Source: Ktedonobacteraceae bacterium
Lineage (GTDB): Bacteria; Chloroflexota; Ktedonobacteria; Ktedonobacterales; Ktedonobacteraceae
Reading direction: 5' to 3'
Assembly: GCA_019240835.1 (NCBI GenBank)
Contig: JAFAXQ010000060.1
Coordinates: 1-46,141, forward strand
Length of the DNA stretch: 46,141 nucleotides
Shown: piece by piece, positions 18,314 to 28,530 of the stretch
How positions within the stretch are numbered: the first letter of the stretch is position 1
Layout of the letters: the number at the start of each line of letters is the position of its first letter
The notes under the pieces: model-generated
The model's input: only the letters and a program-made list of their open reading frames with translations
The model's database searches: none
Told to the model about the DNA's origin: nothing
Program-made: the position numbers and the translations under genes

Positions 18314-18334
18314 ACACTCATCTCCTTGGTAGGT

Positions 18335-18357
18335 GCGTGATCAATCATGCCCCTACA
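18335..18357 (-). repeat. Diverged palindromic element copy E at the purF-purD junction
   Basis: Minus strand TGTAGGGGCATGATTGATCACGC compared with TAGGGGCCCGATTGATCGTGCCC. Confidence 0.6.
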
Positions 18358-19823
18358 GACAAATTATCGCACTGCACAGGCAGGGTACGCTGCGCCTCTG
18401 TAGACGGGTCGAAGGGCCAGCCCTGCCTGTTCATGCAGCCATAACAGAACTCACAGTGTAGCAGCTTGAGGGCTGCCTCGTCATCACCCACCGTTTCACC
18501 TGAATCAGTAGCATTGATGGCACGGCCCAGTCCTGGCAGGCTCAAGTAGCCCAGGCTATCGACATCGATGTAGTCGGCGATTTCCTGTACGGTACGACCG
18601 AAAGCGATCAGCTCGGACTCTTGCGGAATGTCAATGCCGAAGTAGCAGGGGTGACGCAGTGGAGGAGAGCTTGAGCGCAGGTGAATCTCTCTGGCCCCCT
18701 GACGACGCATTGCCGCTACGAGGCGCTTCATAGTGTTGCCGCGCACTATCGAGTCATCCACGATCACCAGACGTTTTCCCTCTATCTTCGGTTTGACGAG
18801 ATTGAACTTCAGATCAATCTCTAACTGGCGTAATCTCTGATCGGGCTTGATAAAGGAGCGGTCACTATAGCGATTTTTGATAATGGCCATACTATAGGGA
18901 ATACCCGACATCTCTGCGTAGCCAAGGGCGGCGGGGATGGAAGAGTCAGGCACAGGGAACACAACGTCGGCTGTAGCGGGATGCTCTTTTGCTAGCTCGC
19001 GCCCCAGGGCCTCACGCACCGCATATGTGTATCTGCCATTTAACTGACTCGTGGCATCTGAGAAGTAAATGCACTCGAACACACAGAGCGAACGTCGTGG
19101 TACCTGTACCAGTATCTCCGCGTGTATTCCCTGTTCGTCGATGCTGACCAGTTCGCCGGGTTCAACCTCGCGCACAAAGGTAGCTCCCAGCCGCTCTATA
19201 GCACACGACTCAGAGGCAACGATCCAGTTATTGCCGATGCGGCCTATACACAATGGGCGCATACCCCAAGGGTCGCGCATGGCATAGAGCTTGCCTTCGG
19301 CTAGAACGACAAGGCTATAAGCACCGCGCAACAGAGGAAACGTTGCAATCATACGTTCGCGCAGTGTTCGGCCTTCTGCTTTTAAGAGAAGAAGAGCAAT
19401 GACTTCACTATCGGTAGTAGAGTACAAAGCGTCTTGCGGCAACTGTTCACGTAAAGCAGGTCCATTCACCAGATTCCCATTGTGTGCCACAGCGATAGCA
19501 TCATACGCTCTCTCGCCGACCACGAATGGTCCCGCGTTCTCAACGCAGCTTGAGCCAGTTGTTGAGTAGCGTACATGGCCGATACCACAATGAGTAAAGG
19601 GCAGCCTCATGCCTGAATCGCTGAACACGTCACGCACTTTACCCATGTCTGCATGATGCACGATTCTTCCCTCATCGTCGTACACCGCCATGCCCGCGCT
19701 CTCTTGTCCGCGATGTTGCAGCGCAGTTAGTGCAAGCGTAATATACCTGCGCACGTCGATACGTTCCTCGCCTTGCTGCGTATAGATACCAACTATTCCG
19801 CAAGCATCGCGTAGTCGCTCCAT
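18345..19823 (-). CDS. purF: Amidophosphoribosyltransferase
   Basis: MERLRDACGIVGIYTQQ...LTALQHRGQESAGMAVYD...GHVRYSTTGSS...VVFPVPDSSIPAALGYAEMSGIPY...LVIVDDSIVRGNTMKRLV. Confidence 0.98.
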   Translation of the reverse strand: MERLRDACGIVGIYTQQGEERIDVRRYITLALTALQHRGQESAGMAVYDDEGRIVHHADMGKVRDVFSDSGMRLPFTHCGIGHVRYSTTGSSCVENAGPFVVGERAYDAIAVAHNGNLVNGPALREQLPQDALYSTTDSEVIALLLLKAEGRTLRERMIATFPLLRGAYSLVVLAEGKLYAMRDPWGMRPLCIGRIGNNWIVASESCAIERLGATFVREVEPGELVSIDEQGIHAEILVQVPRRSLCVFECIYFSDATSQLNGRYTYAVREALGRELAKEHPATADVVFPVPDSSIPAALGYAEMSGIPYSMAIIKNRYSDRSFIKPDQRLRQLEIDLKFNLVKPKIEGKRLVIVDDSIVRGNTMKRLVAAMRRQGAREIHLRSSSPPLRHPCYFGIDIPQESELIAFGRTVQEIADYIDVDSLGYLSLPGLGRAINATDSGETVGDDEAALKLLHCEFCYGCMNRQGWPFDPSTEAQRTLPVQCDNLSVGA

Positions 19824-19866
19824 GCTCTTTTCTCCTCCCTATATGTGAGATCCATCAATGTATCTA

Positions 19867-20622
19867 TTATATTCGTAATTTACCGCTCAGATCAGCTACC
19901 AAGGCGTAAAGATCAGCTATACCCTGCAAATCCTCAGGCGTGATGTTCTTCAGGTTGCGATAGACCTGTTTGTCCAGCATGCGTGTCTTGTCACCGTCGG
20001 GCCAAAGCCGCCAGCTATCATTATCTATTACGTCGGCGACTAGTAGGCTGCTCCTGCTGTCACGCCCGAATTCGATCTTGAGATCGACGAGTGTCACATC
20101 CACTGTTGCCCAGGCACGTTCCAGAGTTGTAAAGACGCGGCGTCCTTGCTCAGCCATCCACACTATCTCCTGCGGAGAGGCAAGGTCCATTTTAATGATG
20201 TCCTCTTGCCAGATCTGCGGGTCGTGCCGTGCGTCATCCTTGAGAAACGTTTCGACTAGCACTGGCTCAAAGCGTGTTCCCTCGCTTACCTCTGGATGGC
20301 GCTTTAGGTAGGAACCGGTGGCGATGCGGCGCTGCACCTGCTCGATAGCCAGCATCTTGCAGCGCTTGATCAGCAGCGTCGCATCGTTGATCTGCTCGAC
20401 GAAATGCGTAGGAATGTTTGCCTCGTTCAACAGGCGAAAGATAGAGGCGGTGGTGATGGTACTCCAGTGCGATTTGCCCAGCAACTCATCGCGGCGAGTG
20501 CCATCACCCGCGGTGATCTGATCTTTATTCACCATGTAGGCCAGCGTGTCATCGCCGGGATAAGAATAGATAAGTTTCGTTTTGCCCTCAGCGAGGAGTG
20601 GCCCAAATGGGGGATGAATCAT
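19867..20622 (-). CDS. purC: Phosphoribosylaminoimidazole-succinocarboxamide synthase (SAICAR synthetase)
   Basis: LLAEGKTKLIYSYPGDDTLAYMVNKDQITAGDGTRRDELLGKSHWSTITTASIFRLLNEANIPTHFVEQI...LVDLKIEFGRDSRSSLLVADVIDNDSWRLWPDGDK. Confidence 0.97.
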   Translation of the reverse strand: MIHPPFGPLLAEGKTKLIYSYPGDDTLAYMVNKDQITAGDGTRRDELLGKSHWSTITTASIFRLLNEANIPTHFVEQINDATLLIKRCKMLAIEQVQRRIATGSYLKRHPEVSEGTRFEPVLVETFLKDDARHDPQIWQEDIIKMDLASPQEIVWMAEQGRRVFTTLERAWATVDVTLVDLKIEFGRDSRSSLLVADVIDNDSWRLWPDGDKTRMLDKQVYRNLKNITPEDLQGIADLYALVADLSGKLRI

Positions 20623-22571
20623 GATATACCCTTTCCTGAATTTTTCGACGCAAAGACAACACCTTCACCCTGTGTGATATAACCTACGGTGAGCAGCTCT
20701 GGCAGCACACCGCACGCTGCTAATGCCTCTCTGGGTGAGAGGACGATCACCATGCCTACTCCCATGTTGAAGGTGCGATATAACTCTTCGTGTGTGAGAT
20801 GACCCAGGCGCGCAAGTAATGTGAAGAGTGGTGGCACGCTCCACCCGTCGGTCTGGATCACAGCTTGCATGTTTGCGGGAAGGATGCGCGAGAGGTTGCC
20901 CTCGAAGCCTCCTCCCGTGATATGGGCGATACCCTTGATACCTTTTCCACGCTCTACTAGGCGCTCGCGTAGCAGGTTGATTTCGCCTAGATAACAGCGA
21001 TGTGGCCGCAATAGCGCATCTACCAGCGGCTCGCCCAACTCAGGAAACACACTATTGAGTCTGGACTGATCGCTCTCGTGCAGACCGAAGAGGTGTCGGA
21101 CCAGCGAATAGCCATTCGTATGTAGGCCACTCGACGGCAGACCGAGCAGTATATCGCCAATACGGATGGTGGAACCGTTAATGATCTCGTCTTGCTCCAC
21201 CACACCGACGATAGTTCCTGCCAGATCAAATGCACCAGGCAGGTACACACTAGGCATTTCCGCTGTTTCTCCTCCCAGCAAAGCACAACCAACTTGCTGG
21301 CATGCACCTGCTATGCTACGGACAACCGCTGCAGCTTGCTGCGGGACTAGCTCGCCCATAGCGAGATAATCCATGAAGAAGAGCGGTCGTGCGCCCTGTG
21401 TCAACAGATCATTCACACAGTGGTTGACAAGATCATAGCCAATGGTGTCGAAGCGTCTAGCCTGGGCTGCGATAAGCGTCTTAGTGCCTACTCCATCGGT
21501 TGATGAGACGAGAGCGGGGCAGCGCATTTTCTGCAGGGTAGTAGCGTTAAAGACACCAGCGAATGCACCCATTCCCGCCAGCACCTCAGGTCCGTGCGTC
21601 GCTCGTACAGCATCGTGCATTAGGCGTTTTGCGCGATCCGCCGAGGCAATATTGACGCCGCTATCGGCATACGATATCTGCATTGGAGACGGCGTGATGC
21701 CTTGCACGCCCTCAATAGGGGCCCGATTGATCGTGCCCTTGGGGTGGGGGGAATGGGGAAAACCCCGCAGGCTCTGAGCATAGGCATAAGCATTTTTGAA
21801 AATGAGTAACCCCTCCCCTTGGGCACGATCAATCGGGCCCCTACCGATGCCGCGCCGCTGTGGATGTTGAAGTGCAGAGACATAGCGTTCGGGATGCGGC
21901 ATGAGGCCGAGGACGTTACCACGTGCGTTGCACACCCCCGCCACGTTACCAACAGAGCCATTAGGATTGTCGGGGTAGGCAACGGTTTTCTGTCCAGACC
22001 CGCCACTGTAGAGCAGCGGAATCTGGCCCAGTGCTTGCAATTGTGTGATATCGCCGCACAAGACGAATTGTCCCTCACCGTGAGCGACGGGAAGTTCGAT
22101 AGACCGTTCAATGCTCTGCGTGAAAATGCATGTGCTCGGTTGGACTGCCAGAGTGATCCAGCGACACTCGAATTGCGCCGATGCATTATCGGTTAATGTG
22201 GCAACATGCTGCTCAACGTTGCCCGGTAGCAATCCTGCGCGTACCAGCACTTGAAAGCCGTTGCAGATGCCCAGCAGGGGGCGACCTTCGTCGACGAACT
22301 GGCGCAGTTGTGCGCCGAGATGAATGGTCAGATTCTTGGCTAAGAGCGTACCCGCACCAAGGTCGTCGCCATAAGAGAAGCCCCCTGGAATGACTAAAAA
22401 GTCGTAATCGAGCAGCTTTGTAGGTGCTTGCAGCAGTTGATTGATATGTACAAGGTCGCTAACAAAGCCGACGAGACGGCATGCCCTGACCGTTTCGCGA
22501 TCACAGTTGATGCCCGGAGCACGTAGCACAAGAGCGCGTATGCTCTCCATTATGCCTATCCTCCCTTCCAT
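20619..22571 (-). CDS. Fused FGAM synthase glutaminase subunit (PurQ) + AIR synthetase (PurM)
   Basis: 650 aa single ORF. N-terminal PurQ: ALVLRAPGINCDRETVRAC...VIPGGFSYGDDLGAGTLLAKN...PLLGICNGFQVLVRAGLLPG...GLMPHPERYV. C-terminal PurM: SADRAKRLMHDAVRATHGPEVLAGMGAFAGVF...STDGVGTKTLIA...GYDLVNHCVNDLLTQGARPLFFMDYLA...ALLGGETAEMPSVY. Confidence 0.93.
   Translation of the reverse strand: MEGRIGIMESIRALVLRAPGINCDRETVRACRLVGFVSDLVHINQLLQAPTKLLDYDFLVIPGGFSYGDDLGAGTLLAKNLTIHLGAQLRQFVDEGRPLLGICNGFQVLVRAGLLPGNVEQHVATLTDNASAQFECRWITLAVQPSTCIFTQSIERSIELPVAHGEGQFVLCGDITQLQALGQIPLLYSGGSGQKTVAYPDNPNGSVGNVAGVCNARGNVLGLMPHPERYVSALQHPQRRGIGRGPIDRAQGEGLLIFKNAYAYAQSLRGFPHSPHPKGTINRAPIEGVQGITPSPMQISYADSGVNIASADRAKRLMHDAVRATHGPEVLAGMGAFAGVFNATTLQKMRCPALVSSTDGVGTKTLIAAQARRFDTIGYDLVNHCVNDLLTQGARPLFFMDYLAMGELVPQQAAAVVRSIAGACQQVGCALLGGETAEMPSVYLPGAFDLAGTIVGVVEQDEIINGSTIRIGDILLGLPSSGLHTNGYSLVRHLFGLHESDQSRLNSVFPELGEPLVDALLRPHRCYLGEINLLRERLVERGKGIKGIAHITGGGFEGNLSRILPANMQAVIQTDGWSVPPLFTLLARLGHLTHEELYRTFNMGVGMVIVLSPREALAACGVLPELLTVGYITQGEGVVFASKNSGKGIS
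21716..21768 (+). repeat. Palindromic element copy B at the purQ-purM junction
   Basis: TAGGGGCCCGATTGATCGTGCCCttGGGGtGGGGggaatggggaaaaCCCCGC; 23-nt core is the exact reverse complement of copy A. Confidence 0.85.
21810..21843 (-). repeat. Palindromic element copy A inside the purQ part of the fusion
   Basis: Plus strand ccccTccccttGGGCACGATCAATCGGGCCCCTA; 23 nt perfect inverted repeat of copy B. Confidence 0.85.
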
Positions 22572-25564
22572 GCCTCTTGTAGTGTAGCAACACTTACGTG
22601 AATCAGTTCGGTTTCACCATCGCGCACAATAAAGTTTGGTGTGGCAGAGACAGTACCAACGTAGGTGAGCGCTTCGACGCCAGCGGTGCGCATGTGTGTC
22701 TCAAACGCGTCACTTTGCTGCGGGGCGATCTCTACGAGAAAACGCGAGGCCGACTCACTGAAGAGGCGAGCAATGTTTATTGCGGGGAAAGCCTTACCCC
22801 ACCCTTGGGGCGCGATAAATCGGGCCCCTATGGCGATGTTGCCTACATCGAGAGTCATACCCAGCATGCTTGCCAACGACATCTCGGCGGCAGCAACGGC
22901 CAGTCCTCCTTCCGAAAGATCGTGACAGGAGTACACTAGTCCCTCGCGTATGGCCGTACACAGCGCCTTCATCGTGGCCGCCGCGCAAGTAATATCAACA
23001 CGTGGCACAATGGGGGGAATGAAGCGTTCAAGTGTAGCACGATCCACCACCTCGGCGTAATGCGATCCACCCAGTTCACAGTGTGTCTCCCCTACGAGAT
23101 AGAGCAGATTGCCTGGCGTCTTGAGCGCCATGTCGATGGTCTGTGCGGCATCCTCAATCACACCGACGGCAGAGATCACTAGCGTGGGCAGAACTGGGAT
23201 GCGACGTTTTGCGGTGCGATACTCGTTGTTGAGGCTATCCTTACCAGAGATAAAAGGTGTACCAAAGCCAACGGCGGCATCGTGGCAGCCCTTGACAGCT
23301 CGCACAAGCATGCCAAGTTGCAGTGGGTCGTTGGGATTGCCCCAGCAGAAATTATCTAGCAGGGCCGCGTGCGTAATGTCACCACCCACCGCTGTTAGAT
23401 TGCGAAGTGCCTCGTCGACGACGTTGAGCGCCATTGCATACGGATCAATCGTGCCATAGAGTGGATTGACGCCGTTGGAGATTACAATACCTGCCCGCTG
23501 CCCCTCTCCTGTCCCAAGCAGAGGTTGCAGTACCGCCGCATCGCCCGGTCCATTGCCCGCTCGTCCTACTAGTGGCTTGAGCACCGTCGCGCCCTGGACT
23601 TCGTGGTCATAGCGGCGCACCACATCTTCCTTTGAGGCGATGGTGGGATGACGTAACAATGCTAACAATGCGGGACCGCATCCATCTATAGTAGGGGCGA
23701 CTGGCTCTGCCCCCGTCCTGTTTGGCTCTGCTCCTACCATATACACCGCTTCTAATGTTGGCCTTGGCCTGCCGTGGTGCAGAAACTCCATATCCATATC
23801 GGCAACAACCCGTTCCTGGTAGGTAACTGTCAAGCGACGGTTGTCGCTAAAGGTTCCGATGACGCTGATTTCAACCTCTTCAATAGAGCAGATTTCCTGT
23901 AGCTCCTCTAGCTTTGCGGGCGGAACGGCCAGTACCATGCGCTCCTGCGCCTCCGAAACCCATATCTCCCACGCAGCTAAGCCCTGGTACTTGAGCGGAG
24001 CCTTCGTTAGTTCAACGCGTACGCCGCTAGCAGCTCCCATCTCGCCGATAGCAGAGGAAAAACCGCCTGCACCGCAATCGGTAATCGCGTTATATAATCG
24101 GTGCTCTCTTGCCTGGATCACAACATCGGCGACCTTCTTCTCCGTAATGGGGGCACCAATCTGTACCGCTGCACCCGCTTGCGCATTCGTCTCACTGCTC
24201 ATCTCGCCCGAAGAGAACGTGGCACCATGCACACCATCGCGTCCCGTGCGCCCACCCAGCACGACGACCAGATCGCCTGACTGCACGGCGCTGGGATGGC
24301 TGCCGTGGGGAAGAATACCGAGGCAGCCACAGAAGACGAGCGGATTGTAGATATATCCCTCGTGATAGAGAATGGCCCCGTTTATCGTAGGAATGCCCAT
24401 CTTATTGCCATAGTCGCGTACGCCATCCACTACACCGCTGGCGATACGGCGCGGCGAGAGTATATCGGCTGGAAGCTGCTCGCTTGAAGTAGCAGGTGGT
24501 CCGAAGCAGAGAATATCGGTACAGGCAATAGGCCAAGCCGAGACGCCCAGCACATCACGAATGACGCCGCCCACGCCCGTATTCGCCCCGCCAAATGGCT
24601 CAATAGCCGAGGGATGATTGTGTGTCTCGACCTTGAAGGCCACATCATGTGTCTCGGTAAAACGCATGACGCCTGCGTTATCGCTAAACGCCGAGACCAG
24701 CCACTTGGGCCTGACCTGCTCGGTGGCACGCATAATATAGTGCCTGAGCAGCCCAGGGATCGTCTCCATCTCAAGCACATTGCCGTTGCCGTCCACCTCT
24801 CGGTATTCAATAGTAGCTTTGAAGGTCTTATGCGAACAATGCTCCGACCAGGTTTGCGCTAGCGTCTCCATCTCGACATCGCTCGGTTCGCGTCCTTGCT
24901 CTTGATAATGCCGCTGAATAGCGCGCATCTCATCAAGGTTGAGTGCCAGTAGCCCTGTTCTGCTCAGCTCAAGCAATTGCTCATCATTCATGCGTGTAAT
25001 GGGAACAGAGACAACAGCATTGCTGTCGGGGACAATGGCCTTGCTTGGTGCAGTCTCCACATCGGGGGGAGAAAACCTGGGCTGGAGCACGTAGTGCTGA
25101 ATAACCGGGTTATATAATAGTGCCTGTACAATGGTGTGTACCTCTGCCTCACTCAAACGTTCATCAAGCACATAGCGTCGCCCCGTCTCAACCCGCTGCA
25201 AGGTTGCAATACCCAATATCTGAGCGCCTGCCAACACACTCTCGGCCAGCGTATCGGTAACACCCGCGTGAAAGAATACATCGACTACGTGGTCCGATGT
25301 GGGCAGCCAGAGTGTGTGTGCCTCTTGCACGACAGGATCAACGAGTAATTCTCGCGTCAATTGAGCGATAGCAGCGGAGGTAAGGTTTCCTGAGAGGCGA
25401 TAGAGTTGAGCCGTACGAATGCTGAGAGGGATGTCATTGGCGGAGAGGGTTGCGAGTGTAGGGACATGGCTAGTCGGTAAGTGGAGTATCTCGCGAGCAA
25501 GGCGATAAGCCTGAGCATCGTTCCGCCTCTCCCTTGCTCGTACCTCTATCTGTTGTAATATCAC
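22556..25564 (-). CDS. purL: Phosphoribosylformylglycinamidine synthase PurL with N-terminal PurS-like domains
   Basis: 1002 aa. N-terminal PurS-like VVDVFFHAGVTDTLAESVLAGAQILGI...VETGRRYVL; PurL core LAQTWSEHCSHKTFKATIEY...VETHNHPSAIEPFGGANTGVGGVIRDVLG...GGRTGRDGVHGATFSS. Confidence 0.96.
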   Translation of the reverse strand: MILQQIEVRARERRNDAQAYRLAREILHLPTSHVPTLATLSANDIPLSIRTAQLYRLSGNLTSAAIAQLTRELLVDPVVQEAHTLWLPTSDHVVDVFFHAGVTDTLAESVLAGAQILGIATLQRVETGRRYVLDERLSEAEVHTIVQALLYNPVIQHYVLQPRFSPPDVETAPSKAIVPDSNAVVSVPITRMNDEQLLELSRTGLLALNLDEMRAIQRHYQEQGREPSDVEMETLAQTWSEHCSHKTFKATIEYREVDGNGNVLEMETIPGLLRHYIMRATEQVRPKWLVSAFSDNAGVMRFTETHDVAFKVETHNHPSAIEPFGGANTGVGGVIRDVLGVSAWPIACTDILCFGPPATSSEQLPADILSPRRIASGVVDGVRDYGNKMGIPTINGAILYHEGYIYNPLVFCGCLGILPHGSHPSAVQSGDLVVVLGGRTGRDGVHGATFSSGEMSSETNAQAGAAVQIGAPITEKKVADVVIQAREHRLYNAITDCGAGGFSSAIGEMGAASGVRVELTKAPLKYQGLAAWEIWVSEAQERMVLAVPPAKLEELQEICSIEEVEISVIGTFSDNRRLTVTYQERVVADMDMEFLHHGRPRPTLEAVYMVGAEPNRTGAEPVAPTIDGCGPALLALLRHPTIASKEDVVRRYDHEVQGATVLKPLVGRAGNGPGDAAVLQPLLGTGEGQRAGIVISNGVNPLYGTIDPYAMALNVVDEALRNLTAVGGDITHAALLDNFCWGNPNDPLQLGMLVRAVKGCHDAAVGFGTPFISGKDSLNNEYRTAKRRIPVLPTLVISAVGVIEDAAQTIDMALKTPGNLLYLVGETHCELGGSHYAEVVDRATLERFIPPIVPRVDITCAAATMKALCTAIREGLVYSCHDLSEGGLAVAAAEMSLASMLGMTLDVGNIAIGARFIAPQGWGKAFPAINIARLFSESASRFLVEIAPQQSDAFETHMRTAGVEALTYVGTVSATPNFIVRDGETELIHVSVATLQEAWKGG
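22783..22832 (-). repeat. Palindromic element copy C inside purL
   Basis: Minus strand ATAGGGGCCCGATTTATCGCGCCCCAAGGGTGGGGTAAGGCTTTCCCCGC, translated IGARFIAPQGWGKAFP. Confidence 0.8.
23691..23737 (+). repeat. Related GTAGGGGC...GCTCCTAC element copy F inside purL
   Basis: GTAGGGGCgactGGCTCTGCCCCCgtcctgttTGGCTCTGCTCCTAC; translated on the minus strand as VGAEPNRTGAEPVAPT. Confidence 0.5.
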
Positions 25565-25610
25565 TTTTCCTGGTCCTGGTTCGGCTATAGCAAATCTTGC
25601 TGGGATTGGT

Positions 25611-25658
25611 GTTTTGGGGTGTTTCCCAAAACTCCACCATAGGGACGATCGCCCCTAT
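25611..25658 (-). repeat. Diverged palindromic element copy D in the purL 5' leader
   Basis: Minus strand ATAGGGGCGATCGTCCCTAT followed by GTTTTGGGaaacaCCCCAAAAC hairpin. Confidence 0.65.
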
Positions 25659-25769
25659 GAACCCTGTTCGCGGAGATAAACGCACACATCGTGGGAGCAT
25701 ATTTATTGTAGCACTTTGCGGCTAGGGGGGCAAATTACGGAGCGTGGTGTTTTAGCGTGTGGGTGACAC

Positions 25770-26291: not shown

Positions 26292-27787
26292 AGATCATAA
26301 TGAATGTTTGCCACTCGATCGCTAACACCACCAAACGTGCCCCAGTTTATTTTTCCTTCTTTTAGAATGTTTTCCGCTTCTCCATGATCAACAAGGTAGA
26401 TTGCTACATTTTCTTGAGAGATAAAGGCATCTGGACGTTTCAGGAAGAATTGACTGGCAAGCGATACCTGCTCCTCTTTCTCGTATTTTCCTGCTTTTAT
26501 TAAATTTGAGAGGTGGTCCAACATATAGGGACTATGTGTCGTAATCAGAACTTTCAATCCTGCATTGACGAGCATGGCAAGGAACTCAATGATCTTTACT
26601 TGCGCTTCAGGGTGCAAATTCATCTCTGGTTCGTCGATGATAAGTAGTTCATCTGGCTCCGCCAAGTAACGCAGGTAGAGGACAAGTGGCGCAAGCTCTT
26701 TGACCATTGAAGATGCGATGGGAATCTCCAACATAACCTCTTGTGCAGGTTGAAAGAGAATCTCTCGCCTCGGATCTGGCTCCGGTGTGGAAAAATCTAC
26801 ATCACCTGCTAAGATCTGCTTTTCCAGAACTTGAGCTAGCTGAATATACTTCTGAATATTTGCATTGTTCTTTGCTTCTTGCTGTCTTTTTTCTTTTTCC
26901 TTGAGGCCAATGCGGAAAGTAGAAGCCATCATAGTCAAAAAGGAACCTACTGGTTCGATGGCAGTTCTTGCATTCTGTTCAAGCATTGTGCTGATGCTTG
27001 GTCCAGATAGTTCTTCTAGTTGTCGCAAGGCTTTCCCAATTGCTTCAAACGTCTTCTCATCGAATGTAAGTGACTCTTTCTCTCTCGTTCTGTCACTGAA
27101 ACGAAATGTGACCAGTGCTGTCCTTTCAGTAGGAAATACACGTATCTGGGGATAGAGTGATTGATGGAGTATACGAGCAACACTTCGGACTAAACGCTCT
27201 TTGATTCCTTCAATAGGTAGCCTCTCGGTTATTAGTTCTTCACCTTCAGTTGATGTATAAATATAGAGTATTTTGTCACCCTGTTTTTTGCGGATAGTAA
27301 GTAGCCCGCCAGCAATATTGCTCTGTAAAGAACACTTCTCGACACGTGCCAAAAAGTCTGCTTTTGTCTCGGTCAGGCTTACCGACATATCCATATTGTC
27401 AAAAATGGCAAGTTGCGTACTCATGAACGCACCCATCCAGTGCTGGGCAAAATTTGCGACATTCTTGAAGTATGTTTCCCCGTATTCCTCTGCAAACTTG
27501 CATAGATCAATGGTGGCATTCCCCTTTGCTAAAACATCCTCAATTGCTTTATCCAGGGGAGGATATACTCTAGCAATCTGACCTTCAGCATATGCTTGTG
27601 CATACTCATTCCAGCCACGACTCCCAAAAATGCCTGAAAGAGTATAAGCTAACCACGTCTTGCCCGAATTATTTTCGCCAATAAATATGGTAAGAGGCTT
27701 AAGGTCAATTTCAGCCTTTTGAATAACACCCAGATTTTGGATAGTTACTTTCATGGTGAGACCTCCCAATGTACCCTGATTACTCAT
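26288..27787 (-). CDS. AAA family ATPase (AAA_15/OLD-like, ABC-type head)
   Basis: MKVTIQNLGVIQKAEIDLKPLTIFIGENNSGKTWLAYTLSGIFGS (Walker A); ELLIIDEPEMNLHPEAQVKIIEFLAMLVNAGLKVLITTHSPYMLDHLSNLI (Walker B, H-loop). Internal MKVTIQ start is likely the real one. Confidence 0.88.
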   Translation of the reverse strand: MSNQGTLGGLTMKVTIQNLGVIQKAEIDLKPLTIFIGENNSGKTWLAYTLSGIFGSRGWNEYAQAYAEGQIARVYPPLDKAIEDVLAKGNATIDLCKFAEEYGETYFKNVANFAQHWMGAFMSTQLAIFDNMDMSVSLTETKADFLARVEKCSLQSNIAGGLLTIRKKQGDKILYIYTSTEGEELITERLPIEGIKERLVRSVARILHQSLYPQIRVFPTERTALVTFRFSDRTREKESLTFDEKTFEAIGKALRQLEELSGPSISTMLEQNARTAIEPVGSFLTMMASTFRIGLKEKEKRQQEAKNNANIQKYIQLAQVLEKQILAGDVDFSTPEPDPRREILFQPAQEVMLEIPIASSMVKELAPLVLYLRYLAEPDELLIIDEPEMNLHPEAQVKIIEFLAMLVNAGLKVLITTHSPYMLDHLSNLIKAGKYEKEEQVSLASQFFLKRPDAFISQENVAIYLVDHGEAENILKEGKINWGTFGGVSDRVANIHYDL

Positions 27788-27832
27788 TTTTATCTTTGCT
27801 GTAGTATATCAGATACGATAGAGGCATGAATA
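27783..27832 (-). promoter_or_regulatory. Promoter-like 50-bp repeat, copy 1 (upstream of AAA ATPase)
   Basis: Minus strand TATTCATGCCTCTATCGTATCTGATATACTACAGCAAAGATAAAAATGAG with extended -10 TGaTATACT; 45/50 identical to copy 2. Confidence 0.65.
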
Positions 27833-28380: not shown

Positions 28381-28480
28381 AGCTATCTTCCTTCAATGCA
28401 TAATGCGGGGCTGCCCACTCGCAACGCATATTATAATCACATCCACTATTTTTAGCAAGGGATAAAGACTGGCCTAATTG

Positions 28481-28530
28481 CTCATTTTTATCTGTGCTGT
28501 AGTATACCAGATGTGATAGAGGCTTGAATA
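28481..28530 (-). promoter_or_regulatory. Promoter-like 50-bp repeat, copy 2 (upstream of 27874..28380 CDS)
   Basis: Minus strand TATTCAAGCCTCTATCACATCTGGTATACTACAGCACAGATAAAAATGAG with extended -10 TGgTATACT. Confidence 0.65.

Follow-up and report, generated by a model that had tools for sequence, protein, structure and literature searches.

What are the short palindromes that recur in the purine gene cluster of this Ktedonobacteraceae bacterium, some of which are translated as part of the enzymes that carry them? The window considered here is a stretch of 46,141 nucleotides, contig 18 of a 4.34-Mb genome assembled in 313 contigs. A sequence-only reading of it grouped six palindromic stretches (A to F) into one family, and offered as explanations either mobile repeats tolerated in surface linkers or a cluster-specific RNA or DNA regulatory element. 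When a covariance model was applied, A, B, C and E proved to be copies of a single 24-nt element, GTAG-GGGC-C-CRAT-TN-ATYG-T-GCCC (42.1, 38.2, 37.3 and 32.0 bits, respectively), while D gave no match and F reached just 14.1 bits (E=0.023). The proposed family of six is thus reduced to four. The first of the two explanations is the better one: with a probability of roughly 0.85, A, B, C and E belong to an old, largely immobile family of GTAG-tagged REPs tolerated in linkers.

The element is composed of an unpaired terminal GTAG, the first G of which is conserved in 92–97% of copies, and an imperfect hairpin with a 9-bp stem and a 2-nt loop; the one mismatch, at the fifth stem pair, is a conserved C.T. 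In the strong-copy consensus the tag is preceded by (tcg), and high conservation stops at the final GCCC. Comparison of distinct paralogues revealed covariation in the stem, with 21 double-changed cells where 7.2 were expected and a covariation score of 0.216 against 0.136, each of which was reached by 0 of 500 shuffles, and sub-families with compensatory stem variants are present among them. Neighbouring copies within 150 bp of each other are mostly arranged head to head (HH), with 18 HH, 10 HT and 2 TT pairs in the stretches of the own genome and 10 HH, 7 HT and 1 TT in the sister species, with spacers that are often ~7 or ~16 nt long. An extra core-like unit follows 13 copies in each species, and the two species differ by tandem units of ~15–24 nt each.

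Within the 46-kb window, no further 24-nt element was found beyond A, B, C and E, in agreement with the original impression, and the pattern matched eight times, both strands of each palindrome being counted, against a mean of 0.01 in shuffles of the window. The claim that the repeats are confined to the pur cluster did not survive a search of the whole genome. The core pattern, with three or fewer mismatches allowed, gave 148 matches in the own genome against one for the reversed pattern, a count in which one palindrome may score on both strands. The covariance model, which was built from 39 copies and yields lower bounds, found at least 131 copies in the own genome and at least 124 in the sister species, as well as at least 142 and at least 144 in two other genera, at least 22–74 in some, and none in several other genomes of the same family or order. 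This patchiness recurs with a relaxed pattern, which was present in 28 of 178 genera among 301 Chloroflexota genomes. A weight matrix located 111 copies in 873 kb of the own genome and 74 in 386 kb of the sister species, stretches mostly picked for holding matches, so that densities drawn from them are biased, and none in reversed sequences; ten unselected contigs (93 kb) held one weak match. Counts from the two species are not independent, as most sites are common to both. Two observations stand apart from this distribution. An AT-rich scaffold of Prevotella pallens (L290:5568-5591) contains the exact core, GTAGGGGCCCGATTTATCGTGCCC, an unexpected location for a Ktedonobacteraceae repeat, and the starts of two adjacent genes in the window carry a 58-nt direct repeat (27775-27832 and 28473-28530, 88%) that is probably a duplicated leader.

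Three of the four copies in the cluster lie within coding sequence and are translated without loss of frame. Copy A (GTAGGGGCCCGATTGATCGTGCCC, 21821..21844, minus strand) is located in the PurQ part of a fused purQ-purM ORF (20619..22571, minus strand) and encodes (G)RGPIDRA. Copy B (ATAGGGGCCCGATTGATCGTGCCC, 21715..21738, plus strand) lies in the PurQ-PurM linker of the same ORF, where its antisense reading is GTINRAPI, and copy C (ATAGGGGCCCGATTTATCGCGCCC, 22808..22831, minus strand) encodes IGARFIAP in purL (22556..25564, minus strand). Copy E (GTAGGGGCATGATTGATCACGCAC, 18333..18356, minus strand) occupies the purF/purD spacer immediately 5' of the ribosome-binding site and start of purD. 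These 24-mers are slightly offset from the spans first assigned to them. Read-through had been described for four copies; it holds for A, B and C, the fourth, F, being no member of the family.

Alignment with homologues indicates that the peptides at A and C are insertions, absent from the PurQ and PurL of other genera. PurQ reads HPQRR-GIGRGPIDRA-QGEGLLIF here and HPQRR-TLANG-QGDGLLIF in L033, a net gain of 5 aa that holds against most other genera compared, and PurL at C has a net gain of 6 aa relative to L092, with GARFIAP in a stretch whose length varies between genera. The borders of both insertions are blurred, the net gains being +15 and ~+18 nt rather than 24. The linker that holds B is likewise variable between genera. 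In an AlphaFold model (mean pLDDT 73.9, 18 sequences), pLDDT stays below 50 in the segments that contain the peptides of A and B (226-243 and 264-299). The predicted structure of PurL is poor, with a mean pLDDT of 50. The purQ-purM fusion predates the elements; it is found in most family members, which are fused without the element, and a causal role for the element in the fusion was therefore rejected. A and B together can fold as one long hairpin (z -8.6), and a single 130-bp MITE spanning both was also considered and rejected. Between the two arms the sequence codes for LLIFKNAY, a C-terminal stretch of PurQ that other genera also have, and A and B are therefore separate insertions in opposite orientation.

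Copies A, B and C are found at the same places in the sister species, A having decayed to GTATGGGTACGATAAATCGTGCTC, and E has an orthologous copy there. The sister PurQ-PurM linker contains three additional tandem units of ~48 nt each. A copy is also present in the sister purC-purF spacer, where the TAG of the element serves as the purC stop; here that site is empty and purC stops with TAA.

The two stretches excluded from the family are of different kinds. D (around 25639-25660) is a near-perfect, single-copy palindrome in the purL leader, whose core occurs only once in the 873 kb of the own genome and 386 kb of the sister species, and the regions preceding purL in eleven other genomes showed no such palindrome. 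The surrounding leader sequence (25611-25660) holds two adjoining, unrelated palindromes, CATAGGGGCGATCGTCCCTATG and TGGAGTTTTGGGAAACACCCCAAAACACCA, which were not seen in other genera. F (23691..23737, minus strand) is a GTAG-tagged stretch in a variable linker of PurL that reads as VGAEPNRTGAEPVAPT. Its start, TAT-GTAGGGGCGAC, is that of copies of a second GTAG family, GTAGGGGCGACCCTYGCGGTCGCCC, and by this resemblance F is probably a degenerate relative of that family. The same PurL linker in the sister species carries GTAGGGGCGGGGCTTGCCCCCGCCC. Matches to the second family number 33 in the own genome and 226 in G025, which belongs to a different family within the order; many of the latter are identical, which suggests recent activity, and no RAYT match was found in G025. 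Another linker shows a comparable exchange. CcmA and CcmB form one fused ORF in both species (L124:5302-6732 and L212:2119-3615), and the linker between them holds an apparent repeat of the second family here and three A/B/C/E-family copies in the sister.

Copies of the A/B/C/E family also lie at the ends of genes. Where an intergenic copy has its GTAG end towards the 3' end of an upstream gene, its own TAG can serve as the stop codon of that gene, as it does in 24 of 56 such cases in the own genome and 20 of 32 in the sister species, as judged with a simple home-made gene finder on which all gene calls and stop counts rely. In co-directional spacers, sense copies are commoner than antisense ones (40 against 18 in the own genome, 22 against 10 in the sister), a bias that may reflect either insertion preference or selection. 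One can go further and propose that in this lineage REP insertion repeatedly supplies proteins with linker sequence and genes with new ends, with different GTAG families independently entering the same linkers in sister species (PurL, CcmA-CcmB), expanding in tandem (PurQ-PurM) and replacing stop codons, so that protein architecture is reshaped and the repeats are more than tolerated. We regard this extension as possible but doubtful.

The intragenic copies raise the question of whether the encoded peptides are themselves of use. They make up 25 of the 111 copies mapped in the own genome (~22%) and 24 of the 74 in the sister species, occur only in stop-free frames, and add roughly 5–8 residues in loops or linkers. 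Of 44 such copies scoring 20 or more, 19 are read in the antisense frame GTINRAPT, 15 in the sense frame VGARFIVP, 8 in the sense frame RGPIDRAP, and the remaining 2 use a fourth frame. Selection at the protein level would hold that VGARFIVP, RGPIDRAP and GTINRAPT are useful, for example as standard linkers. The almost exclusive use of three frames is in its favor, as is the occurrence of different repeat families in the same linkers (PurL, CcmA-CcmB) of the two species and the near absence of an open antisense frame, GHDKSGPY, both of whose two examples are low-scoring. Two of the six frames are closed by stops anyway, however: the third sense frame by TAG, and one antisense frame by TAA in copies with TTTATC. 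Moreover, the hosts are unrelated (PriA, a Dna2-like helicase, QueA, CcmH, the CcmA-CcmB fusion, PEP carboxylase, PKS and others), A and B lie in disordered-like segments predicted with low confidence, and about four fifths of all copies are untranslated. Selection for the peptides is therefore very unlikely as the explanation.

Regulation of the purine genes by an operator or RNA switch common to the cluster draws on the position of E, which adjoins the ribosome-binding site in the purD leader, and on several intergenic copies elsewhere in the genome that lie 11–45 nt before start codons in the sense orientation. Opposed to this are the many copies beside and inside unrelated genes, the location of A, B and C within coding sequence, the absence here of the purC-purF copy present in the sister, and the fact that the Rfam matches in the window above the gathering score are tRNAs only. 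The divergence of orthologous copies is also unfavorable. Across 38 orthologous pairs, stems differ by 10.5%, loops by 16% and tags by 14%, between flanks that are mostly 83–95% identical, and just three stem changes go from Watson-Crick to Watson-Crick on both sides. Because the stem diverges at about the rate of its flanks, no protection of the hairpin is visible. Such a regulatory element, the second of the explanations first offered, has become highly improbable. The third alternative, that the likeness is due to chance or low complexity and there is no true family, might appeal to lone palindromes such as D, a reminder that G-rich palindromes readily resemble one another, but for A, B, C and E it is already refuted by the match counts against reversed stretches and window shuffles and has a negligible chance of being right.

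The same comparisons support the age and immobility of the GTAG-tagged REP family. Sites with both flanks alignable are shared in 37 of 40 cases from the own genome and 37 of 45 from the sister, fractions biased by the choice of both samples for carrying copies, and several of the remainder are not true empty sites. Clean empty sites are few; one clean filled and empty pair (L207:7070 and L135) has a net difference of 21 nt. In the mechanism that we propose, copies would owe their dispersal to the action of a RAYT-type, single-strand Y1 transposase on the hairpin, and would now be mostly inert, inherited vertically and decaying at the background rate, with present change arising mainly through local tandem duplication. 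No function of the element in the pur genes would be required.

The search for a mobiliser gave results that weigh against this mechanism. No intact Y1 transposase was found in either species and neither contains a match to the RAYT model NF047646, the own genome having just a 68-aa PF01797 fragment in an assembly of 313 contigs, from which a repeat-flanked gene can be lost; a search of the own genome for a DDE transposase family gave no matches and was uninformative. The NCBIfam RAYT model did identify RAYTs in related genera of the same bacterial family, and the idea that these relatives possess IS200-type Y1 genes only was rejected on that basis. Repeats tagged with GTAGGGGC lie alongside the RAYT loci of G019, G015 and G014. 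The G019 gene (L295) is located between inverted repeats that start with CCGTAGGGGCGGG and run to GACCCTTGTGGTCGCCC, similar repeats flank the G015 gene (L299), and GTAG repeats of the second family lie to either side of the G014 gene (L304). Among these loci no RAYT with termini of the A/B/C/E family was found; the termini seen belong either to the second GTAG family or to a longer relative. One A/B/C/E-family copy (29.9 bits, L295:1461-1484) lies ~70 bp outside a RAYT terminus. From these arrangements of sequence, mobilization of the A/B/C/E family by a RAYT may reasonably be inferred.

These findings extend the in-frame decoration of genes by REPs to core enzymes of the Ktedonobacteraceae, among them PurQ, PurL, PriA, QueA and PEP carboxylase. 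The sister genomes are near enough for filled and empty sites to be compared, and the insertions provide a natural series for asking how far conserved enzymes tolerate random peptide. They also call for caution with such genomes, where repeats account for part of the linkers and gene ends.

A literature search with the core sequence returned unrelated papers only. The GTAG-tagged REP super-family comprises dispersed, high-copy palindromes of 20–40 bp with an unpaired GTAG at one end, a stem of 5–13 bp, a short loop, compensatory sub-families and a predominance of HH dimers; TAG stop codons of flanking genes and in-frame intragenic copies are described there, and a Chloroflexi example, GTAG-23 of T. 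roseum, is already reported (Di Nocera et al., 2013; PMC3733652). The present family shares the tag, hairpin, dispersal, HH pairing, compensatory stems, TAG stops and in-frame copies. It differs in its host lineage, the C.T mismatch, an intragenic share of about a fifth of mapped copies and the lack of a detected RAYT, and probably also in sequence from the 24 GTAG families of that paper. REPINs with RAYTs (Nunvar et al., 2010, PMC2817692; Bertels and Rainey, 2011, PMC3116915) are similar in their two inverted REPs, short spacer and vertical inheritance, and find a counterpart in the GTAG-repeat-flanked RAYTs of related genera, but no cognate RAYT was found in the own genome; E. coli genomes without a RAYT still keep REPINs (PMC8049555). 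The Rickettsia elements RPE-4 and RPE-6, to which the sequence-only reading likened the repeats, are an apt analogy as short palindromes in frame within many unrelated proteins, and are distinct in their tag, which is CGTC in those elements (PMC3733652) and GTAG in this family. The repeats of the pur cluster represent a known class of element that is new to this lineage, where core enzymes carry a clear set of its in-frame insertions.
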